Assembly: GCF_025965215.1 (NCBI RefSeq)
Contig: NZ_JAOPXI010000161.1
Span: forward strand, 1 to 34,072
Length of the DNA: 34,072 bases
Source: Marmoricola sp.
Lineage (GTDB): Bacteria; Actinomycetota; Actinomycetes; Propionibacteriales; Nocardioidaceae
Direction: 5' to 3'
The notes under the pieces were generated by a model, which did not search any database, was not told the DNA's origin, and worked only from the letters and a program-made list of their open reading frames with translations. A program made the position numbers and the translations under genes. Below are positions 1-16,257 of this stretch, in pieces (within the stretch, counting starts at the first letter, position 1; each line of letters starts with the position of its first letter).

Positions 1-116
1 CGTCGTCGTTCCCGTTGCTCGAGGGCCGCGGACTCGTCGACGGCTCTGCGGCGGCGTACGTGTTCCGGGCGTTGGTGTGCGAGCGCCCGGTCACCGACAC
101 GGATCTGTTCCTCTAA
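1..116 (+). CDS. C-terminal end of a DUF255 / YyaL-type thioredoxin-domain protein (partial)
   Basis: An open frame enters from the left edge (frame starts at base 3) and ends at TAA 114-116. The last residues read ...AAAYVFRALVCERPVTDTDLFL. From memory, this resembles the C-terminal end of large DUF255 (spermatogenesis-associated-protein-20/YyaL-like) proteins, where an AYVC..F.C..PVTD pattern is typical. The position next to a hemolysin III gene fits Rv1084-Rv1085c in Mycobacterium. Only about 37 residues are visible, so the catalytic thioredoxin-like part cannot be checked. The TAA overlaps, on the other strand, the stop of a truncated copy of the trhA 3' end (cta at 113-115), as if two convergent genes once met here. 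A degenerate copy of this gene's 3' end recurs in the array that follows. The call rests on a short tail and on context. Confidence 0.55.
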   Translation, partial: SSFPLLEGRGLVDGSAAAYVFRALVCERPVTDTDLFL

Positions 117-801
117 CGCAGCTGGTACGTCGCGATCGATACGTCGGCGTACGTGTGTCGGGCGATGGTGTGCGAACGACCGGTGACGGACCCCGGGGGA
201 GCTCACCACATCGCGGCAAGCTCGATGACCGGTGAACGCGGCTGGTACGTCGCGATCGATATGGCGGCGATGGTGTGCGAACGACCGGTGACGGACCCAG
301 GGGAGCTCACCACATCTCGGCAAGCTCGATGACCGGTGAACGTAGCTGGTACGTCGCGATCGACACGGCGGCGATGGTGTGCGAACGACCGGTGACGGAC
401 CCAGGGGAGCTCATCACATCTCGGCAAGCTCGATGACCGGTTGACGCGGCTGGTACGTCGGGATCGACACGGCGATGGTGTGCGAACGACCGGTGATGGA
501 CCCGGGGGAGCTCACCACATCTCGGCGAGCTCGATGACCGGTTGACGCGGCTGGTGCGTCGCGATCGACACGGCGATGGTGTGCGAACGACCGGTGACGG
601 ACCCAGGGGAGCTCACCACATCTCGGCAAGCTCGATGACCGGTTAACGCGGCTGGTACGTCGCGATCGACACGGCGGCGATGTTGCTCACCGCATCTCGG
701 CAAGCTCGATGACCGGCTAGCGCAACTGGTACGTCGCGATCGACACGGCGGCGATGGTGCTCACCACGTCTCGGCAAGCTCGATGACCGGTTAACGCAGC
801 T
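117..801. repeat. Tandem array of seven degenerate 74-120 bp units made of flanking gene ends
   Basis: The word GGTACGTCGCGATCGA, or a near copy, starts at 124, 244, 348, 452, 553, 654, 728 and 802, giving units of 120, 104, 104, 101, 101, 74 and 74 bp. The eighth copy is the real 3' end of trhA. Each full unit has three modules. A is the trhA tail read on the minus strand (VSIATYQ-P/L-R, often followed by a stop). B reads VCERPVTDP on the plus strand, like the tail of the gene ending at 116. C is ctcaccacatctcgg followed by caagctcgatgaccgg, half of the inverted repeat found whole at 4034-4089. The last two units lack B. Short open frames in the array merely follow the repeat period and are not taken as genes. 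Nothing else is seen in this 670-bp stretch. Confidence 0.9.
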
Positions 802-1507
802 GGTACGTCGCGATCGACACGGCGACGTAGTGGCACACGAACGCCGCGATCGTGAGCACGTGGAAGATCTCGTGGAAGCCGAACCAGCTCGGGAACGGGT
901 CGGGTTTCTTCAGGCCGTAGACCAGGCCGCCGAGGGTGTAGAGCCCGCCACCGACTGCGATCAGGGTGATCACCGCGGTGCCACCGTTGGCGGCGAAGTC
1001 GTGGGCGTAGAAGATCGCCGTCCAGCCGAGCAGCACGTACAGCGGCGTGTAGAGCCAGCGCGGCGCATCGGTCCACAGGAGTCGGAAGCCGACGCCGAGG
1101 ATCGCCCCGGTCCAGACCGTCGTGAGCATGCCGACCCGCGCGCTCCCGTGCAGCAGCAGCAGCACGAAAGGCGTGTAGGAACCGGCGATCAGCAGGAAGA
1201 TGTTGGCGTGGTCGAAGCGCCGCAGGATCGCCCACCACTTCGGCGACCAGGTACCGCGGTGATAGATCCCGCTGACCGTGAAGAGGAGGATCGCGGTCCC
1301 GGCGAACAGGGAGGATCCGACCTTGGTGGCCACGGTGGGCGAGAGGCAGATCAGCACGATGCCAGCAGCCACCGCGAGCGGCGAGACGGTCGCGTGCAGC
1401 CAGCCGCGCAGCTTCGGCTTGGCGGCATTCATCTTGTTGTGCAGGGTGAGCGCTGCCTCGTGGGAGAGCTCGGCGGCCTTCTCGGCAACCGGGAGGTGAG
1501 CGTTCAT
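791..1507 (-). CDS. trhA: Hemolysin III / TrhA family (PAQR-like) membrane protein
   Basis: 238 residues, usual for the family. After a polar N-terminus of about 35 residues there are about seven hydrophobic segments. Family marks are visible: KLRGWLHA before the first helix, the SGIYHRG segment, RRFDHANIFLLIAGSYTPF, and near the end FHEIFHVLTIAAFVCHYVAV. The His and Asp residues in these motifs match the presumed metal site of PAQR-type proteins. Members sit in the cytoplasmic membrane; some bacterial ones affect membrane energetics, and a haemolytic role is historical and not implied here. The ATG lies 7 nt after TAGCCT (1515-1520 on the minus strand), suggesting a leaderless transcript. 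The gene is transcribed away from uppS. Its last codons ...SIATYQLR recur seven times downstream in the array, so its 3' boundary seems to have been duplicated repeatedly. Confidence 0.9.
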   Translation of the reverse strand: MNAHLPVAEKAAELSHEAALTLHNKMNAAKPKLRGWLHATVSPLAVAAGIVLICLSPTVATKVGSSLFAGTAILLFTVSGIYHRGTWSPKWWAILRRFDHANIFLLIAGSYTPFVLLLLHGSARVGMLTTVWTGAILGVGFRLLWTDAPRWLYTPLYVLLGWTAIFYAHDFAANGGTAVITLIAVGGGLYTLGGLVYGLKKPDPFPSWFGFHEIFHVLTIAAFVCHYVAVSIATYQLR

Positions 1508-15386: not shown

Positions 15387-15393
15387 CGGCTCC

Positions 15394-16257
15394 GTGAGCT
15401 CACCGATGGGCGATTTCCTCAAGCCCGAAGGCTTTGCTGGTCCCCAAGGTCTCAGAGCACTGTCCCGTGAGGGAAGTGTCCTCTCCGAGGCCGCCCGGTA
15501 CGTCGTGCGCGCCCGTGCCGAGCGCAAGGCTCGCTCCGCGCAGCCGTACGCGGGCCACCACCGTCCGCTCGGCGTCGAACCGGTGCTGCTGGTTCCCGGG
15601 TTCATGGCGGGCGACACGACCCTGGTGCCGATGGCCAGGATGCTGCGCGGTGCCGGCTACCGGACCTACAAGTCGCAGATCCACGTCAACATGGGCTGCA
15701 CCCGCGACGCGGCCGATCGGCTCGAGCGCCGGGTCGAGTCGATCGCGCTGCGGCGCGGCCGCAAGGTGAGCATCGTCGGGCACAGCCTGGGCGGCATGCT
15801 GGCGCGGGCCCTGGCGGCCCGCAGGCCCGACCTGATCGCCGGCATCGTCTCGATGGGCAGCCCGATCATGGCTCCTGGCGCGGTCCACGATGTCCTGGCC
15901 TGGGATGCCGAACTGCTGACCCGGCTGACGCGTGCCGGGTTCGGCGGCCTGATGAGCGAGGACTGCATCGCCGGCGCGTGCGCACGGGCGAGCTTCGAGG
16001 AGAGCCACGCGCCGCTCGACCCCGACGTCGGGTTCACGGCCATCTACTCCCGACGTGACGGCATCGTCGACTGGCGGGCCTGCATCGACCCCGCCGCGGT
16101 TGCGGTCGAGGTGGGCGCGAGCCATGTCGGGATGGCGCTGGACCCGCTGGTCTTCGACGCCGTACGGATGGCTCTGGAGACCCAGAGCGTCAGTCGGGCC
16201 AACCGACGCGAAGCTCCGAGCGACGCGGTGCCGCTGCTCCCGGCCGTGCACAGCTGA
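15394..16257 (+). CDS. Lipase-like alpha/beta hydrolase (cytoplasmic)
   Basis: 287 residues from GTG 15394. The core reads EPVLLVPGFMAGDTTLVPMARMLRGAGYRTYKSQIHVNMGCTRDAADRLERRV, then SIVGHSLGGMLARALAARRPDLIAGIVSMGSP with nucleophile Ser131, a likely Asp in YSRRDGIVDW, and His in GASHVGMALDP. The combination of VPGF with an SxGG-type lid-less elbow is that of triacylglycerol-lipase/PGAP1-like proteins in actinobacteria. There is no signal peptide, so it probably acts in the cytosol; the substrate is unknown. The start is uncertain: GTG 15370 and ATG 15406 are in frame; 15394 sits 7 nt after TACGTT. The last 68 bp overlap the convergent kinase gene. Confidence 0.83.
   Translation: MSSPMGDFLKPEGFAGPQGLRALSREGSVLSEAARYVVRARAERKARSAQPYAGHHRPLGVEPVLLVPGFMAGDTTLVPMARMLRGAGYRTYKSQIHVNMGCTRDAADRLERRVESIALRRGRKVSIVGHSLGGMLARALAARRPDLIAGIVSMGSPIMAPGAVHDVLAWDAELLTRLTRAGFGGLMSEDCIAGACARASFEESHAPLDPDVGFTAIYSRRDGIVDWRACIDPAAVAVEVGASHVGMALDPLVFDAVRMALETQSVSRANRREAPSDAVPLLPAVHS

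Follow-up and report, generated by a model that had tools for sequence, protein, structure and literature searches.

How can the space between two convergent genes come to be filled with tandem copies of their own ends? This question is raised by the left end of the window, i.e. the whole stretch of 34,072 nt analysed here, which is contig C130 of the genome G000, a draft with 206 contigs. The first 116 bases of the window (1-116, plus strand) hold the last 37 codons and the stop (114-116) of a gene cut by the contig edge, the family of which, DUF255 (Thioredox_DsbH), was named through its homologue in G016, a Marmoricola MAG and the sister genome of G000. On the minus strand at 791-1507 lies trhA, which is intact, encodes 238 aa and falls in the Pfam family HlyIII (haemolysin-III related). 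Between the two genes a tandem array occupies positions 117-794. Our analysis suggests that this array is probably a gene junction that was amplified in tandem together with a dispersed REP-like element, and that it has no function.

Layout of the array and relations among its units

The array consists of seven units of 120, 104, 104, 101, 101, 74 and 74 bp, lengths already given in the initial annotation and on which the repeat searches and the unit alignment agree. TRF detected a repeat with period 101 and 5.1 copies at 161-682 and another with period 74 and 2.9 copies at 611-824, each with 92% matches, and a repeat search found 7 copies with spacings of 104, 104, 101, 101, 74 and 74. We cut the units where the trhA-tail segment begins, which gives unit 0 at 117-236 (120 bp), unit 1 at 237-340 (104 bp), unit 2 at 341-444 (104 bp), unit 3 at 445-545 (101 bp), unit 4 at 546-646 (101 bp), unit 5 at 647-720 (74 bp) and unit 6 at 721-794 (74 bp), with the true trhA end directly after unit 6.

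In units 1-4 the order is trhA tail, DUF255 tail (D' hereafter) and REP-like element. All seven units have a trhA tail and a REP-like core, and five of them (units 0-4) have the DUF255-type tail, of which units 5 and 6 both lack 30 bp. This anatomy bears out the initial description of the units as a trhA tail, a DUF255-like tail and half of a dispersed inverted repeat, except that the DUF255 tail is confined to five of the seven units and represents another allele than the flanking gene (see below). In our reading, the 101-bp form is what would be expected if a trhA tail had joined a DUF255 tail at the common GGCGA; the 104-bp form is the 101-bp form with one extra GCG. Unit 0 retains the longest D', with ~15 bp more of it. 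The DUF255 frame ends in units 1-4 at a TGA within the REP-like element, and in unit 0 one added base shifts this frame, which is open on to 332. The REP-like element is absent from the left junction of the window. At 113-116 the letters CTAA serve as the stop of the left gene on the plus strand and as a stop of a trhA-tail copy on the minus strand; this two-strand overlap, noticed at the outset, is present and has the same letters as the real overlap of the two genes in G016.

That the array grew stepwise, as first proposed, agrees with the tendency of neighbouring units to share states. Using seven characters hand-chosen from the unit alignment (five informative sites plus two length classes), we found that 38 of 5040 orders are as parsimonious along the array as the observed one, and with the five single-base sites alone 282 of 5040 orders equal it. 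The sequences give some support to the view that adjacent units tend to be alike, which would fit either stepwise duplication or local conversion. The correlation between the distance of two units and their separation is r = 0.35, a value reached by 462 of the 5040 orders. With a correlation this weak we dropped any polarity of growth, and with it the earlier claim that the copy on the trhA side is the newest.

The junction in related genomes and the REP-like element

The sister genome G016 has no array. Its trhA protein is identical to that of G000 at 237 of 238 residues, and the DNA of the two genomes is ~94-96% identical over the compared stretches. The DUF255 gene and trhA lie tail to tail in G016, overlapping by 4 nt at their stops, and the REP-like element is absent from this junction as well. 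G021 and G018 share this 4-nt overlap, and in G004 the two genes overlap more extensively. The suspicion that the two convergent genes once touched is supported by G016, G021 and G018. Overall, trhA is present in 38 of the 39 genomes searched, and a full-length DUF255 gene in 17 of the 23 other genus genomes, in every case on the same contig as trhA and pointing towards it. The distance between the two genes is at most 3.6 kb in 15 of these 17 genomes, and ~7.4 kb in G020 and ~14.5 kb in G005, as read from the coordinates. In G015, G011, G019 and G006 (loci L004, L005, L008 and L009), DUF255 and trhA are separated by ~900 bp containing a long open frame, which suggests that the junction took inserts more than once.

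A 64-nt probe for the array junction, running from the trhA tail into the DUF255 tail, matches at 63 or more of its 64 bases in G000 only among the 24 genus genomes, where it has five matches; seven of the other genomes hold fragments no longer than 36 bases, and the remaining 16 hold none. None of the genus genomes examined was found to carry just one DUF255-element-trhA junction. The initial claim that the junction was duplicated repeatedly is upheld in so far as the full array junction exists in G000 only, but the units contain no copy of the present flanking end, so the claim needs to be amended on this point.

With up to 2 mismatches allowed, we counted 140 matches of the REP-like core genome-wide on both strands of G000, 25 in G016, 212 in G019, 70 in G014 and 32 in G015; the remaining 19 genomes have 0 to 8 each. 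The search pattern was derived from the G000 copies, so that these counts favour G000. The reversed pattern, used as a control, has 1 match in G000 and at most 1 in any other genome. The inverted-repeat half of the units had been noticed before, and it is indeed dispersed on both strands, but it had been given no role; its insertion as a step in the origin of the array is added here. TRF arrays holding the element were also found on contigs C95, C125, C132 and C154. Between convergent genes on C95, the left one of which we take to resemble purQ, the intergenic space of G000 is 381 bp long and holds ten copies of the element, vs 19 bp in G016; the element clusters on C125 and C154 measure ~780 bp vs 10 bp and 422 bp vs 122 bp, respectively. 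These three sites were selected for having clusters in G000, and the figures describe growth at those sites rather than a genome-wide test.

No Y1 transposase (PF01797) was found in the 24 genus genomes, while 5 of 14 known genomes used as a control were positive, and a RAYT-driven system was rejected on this ground. No GTAG or CGTC tag was seen by eye in the listed copies of the element, and the stem of its 32-nt consensus folds with z scores of -0.92 and -0.65. Since no Y1 transposase was found in the 24 genomes and the palindrome of the consensus is weak, we term the element REP-like and claim no membership in the REPIN-RAYT family. Across the 24 genomes, none of which yielded such a transposase, the number of matches to the core lies anywhere between 0 and 212.

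As the REP-like portion of every unit is dispersed, one could consider the array an independent mobile or VNTR-type repeat with a merely coincidental likeness to the gene tails. We find this hardly credible: 30-odd bases of the trhA part fit the real end of that gene in all seven units, D' codes for the C-terminus conserved in DUF255, and both tails sit between exactly these two genes, a combination seen nowhere else in the 24 genomes. The occurrence of units elsewhere without either gene end, which the initial annotation regarded as the mark of such a repeat, was observed for the REP-like third of the unit only.

Two DUF255 alleles and a proposed origin of the array

The D' segment of unit 0 at 147-194 (plus strand) encodes AYVCRAMVCERPVTDP and was aligned to its relatives. 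Of its 48 nt, 6 differ from G016; these all fall at third codon positions and leave the peptide unchanged, and the chance of six out of six differences falling at third positions is 0.0014. It is equidistant from G016, G021 and G018, with 6 differences to each. The flanking tail has a different record: over the matching 48 nt (54-101) it shows 3 differences from G016, none of them at a third position, and over 1-116 it shows five, all amino-acid-changing and four of them to T. The absence of any synonymous difference from G016 over 1-116 has a chance of ~0.013 at the rate of trhA and uppS, which together show 62 differences from their G016 counterparts, 54 at third positions. D' and the flanking tail differ from each other at 9 of 48 nt. 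The samples behind this comparison of alleles are small, i.e. 48 and 116 bases. The third-position-only pattern of D', taken together with the differing flanking tail, suggests that the units hold the other allele. Judged from the sequences, the unit tail has the history of a functional gene and does not copy the adjoining tail. Because the DUF255 tail of the units differs from the flanking allele, the array cannot have arisen simply by duplicating the present end, and its history must include an additional exchange.

This mismatch could have come about in one of three ways: a G016-like sequence took the place of the left gene end, D' stems from a different lineage, or the contig is a strain chimera at its left edge. 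In the last case the array would be real, positions 1 to ~140 would belong to a G016-like strain, and the true DUF255 gene, of the D' type, would run into unit 0. We consider such a chimera less likely than not. Positions 1-116 form the contig edge and lack synonymous differences from G016, four of the five changes there go to T, and D' has the look of a functional gene with ordinary divergence, all of which a chimera would accommodate; on the other hand, the T at 140 is common to unit 1, which would confine any false join to ~23 bp of trhA tail, and the other DUF255 piece of G000 looks broken too.

Apart from the D' of unit 0, DUF255 is represented in G000 by two end pieces only, both at contig edges. 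The second piece (C61:1-241, locus L156) covers approximately the first 62 codons; the CHWC of G016 reads YHWR in it, and a block has been lost. Beyond the DUF255 start, 105 bp at the contig edge are unrelated and matched only themselves among the loci compared, other matches being at chance level. The DUF255 gene appears to be broken in G000, and the contig edges of the draft may account for part of this picture, the left flank in the window being just 116 bp at such an edge. If the gene is lost in G000, growth of its tail would be harmless.

Returning to the amplification of the junction with a REP-like element, we infer the following order of events, in which a microhomology would start the array and the decay of DUF255 would let it persist. 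The ancestral DUF255 gene and trhA would have overlapped by the 4 nt of their stops, the state observed in three relatives. A dispersed REP-like element may then have landed at the junction, displacing the last DUF255 codons and bringing a new TGA stop, as the anatomy of the units suggests, with DUF255 tail, element and trhA tail as the outcome. This segment would have been duplicated when the trhA tail rejoined the DUF255 tail at GGCGA, producing the 101-bp unit. Unequal exchange or slippage may have raised the copy number, and the pairs of units could reflect minor changes in length (the classes differ by 16, 3 and 30 bp) along with local homogenisation. The array would have been tolerated with trhA keeping an intact end of its own and DUF255 decaying. 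The present left DUF255 end, a different allele, would have been joined to the array or replaced beside it later.

One array and its relatives present an empty ancestral junction, a dispersed element, a likely duplication join and later deletions, and hence a clear record of how intergenic spacer DNA can grow. The origin of intergenic tandem repeats becomes testable at a named site. A gene tail within an array can differ in allele from the adjoining gene, which matters when repeats are used to reconstruct history.

Possible function and comparison with known repeat systems

The initial annotation left open whether the array plays a role in 3' end processing, termination or antisense control, and our scans, Rfam searches and folds gave nothing beyond chance. 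The location between convergent ends would suit such a role, and a minus-strand hairpin of the element (window 300-335) has a z score of -2.35, with 4 of 200 shuffles equally stable. Against this, no promoter-like site was found in the array scan, and the single terminator-like site, at 887-900, lies outside the array and compares with 0.5 expected. Rfam gave no match up to E = 1, folding of eight stretches, six of them whole units (three units, both strands), gave z scores from -1.10 to +1.25, and the array is absent from G016. We consider a functional array quite unlikely; most likely the array is functionless. A plasmid origin was also considered and rejected, as window 100-830 has no match in 72,556 plasmid records at E 1e-5.

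The array is a well-resolved case of the tandem REP clusters with flanking DNA already described in PMC3733652. Large REP clusters are elements reiterated in tandem together with flanking DNA, REP sites lie mostly between unidirectional and convergent genes, and REP ends frequently supply the flanking genes with a stop codon (PMC3733652). Like the REP/BIME clusters of that account, with their GTAG- or CGTC-tagged REPs, the array involves a short dispersed intergenic element that supplies a stop codon and the copy number of which is uneven across relatives. Unlike in those clusters, the flanking DNA carried along comes from two convergent gene ends, relatives show the empty junction, and the element goes with neither a RAYT-type Y1 transposase in the 24 genus genomes nor a tag visible by eye.

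We recognised no report of an array made of two convergent gene tails in the open-licence literature. The MIRUs and the Borg arrays are looser parallels than the REP clusters. MIRUs form a dispersed family of their own, whereas two thirds of the unit in our array is local gene tail. By description, the MIRUs of mycobacteria (PMC4213456) resemble our array in being actinobacterial tandem intergenic units of 50-100 bp between neighbour genes. The Borg tandem repeats are likewise recent, with some absent from a close relative, and about half of the Borg arrays are intergenic or have their first unit in a gene end (PMC9879509). In that account the Borg units are perfect repeats enriched in A, while the units of our array are ~92% alike.

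Elsewhere in G000, the 3' half of tRNA-Arg(CCG) and ~32 bp of spacer are present in 2.6 tandem copies (L188:6257-6493, i.e. contig C137 at ~15393-15629), with a period of 78, 98% matches and no REP-like element. We could speculate that gene tails are recurrent substrates of tandem amplification in this lineage, DUF255/trhA with the element and the 3' half of tRNA-Arg without it. Combined with the idea of a fossil allele, this whole reading is rather improbable; if it were true, the array would keep an allele, D', lost from the flanking gene, and would record a past exchange as well as the decay of a gene at the junction. Another repeat was noticed on contig C88 (L176:821-2588), where a long open frame carries collagen-like Gly-X-Y repeats, one frame beginning ...KGDTGATGATGATGAQGP and being stop-free over 2 kb.
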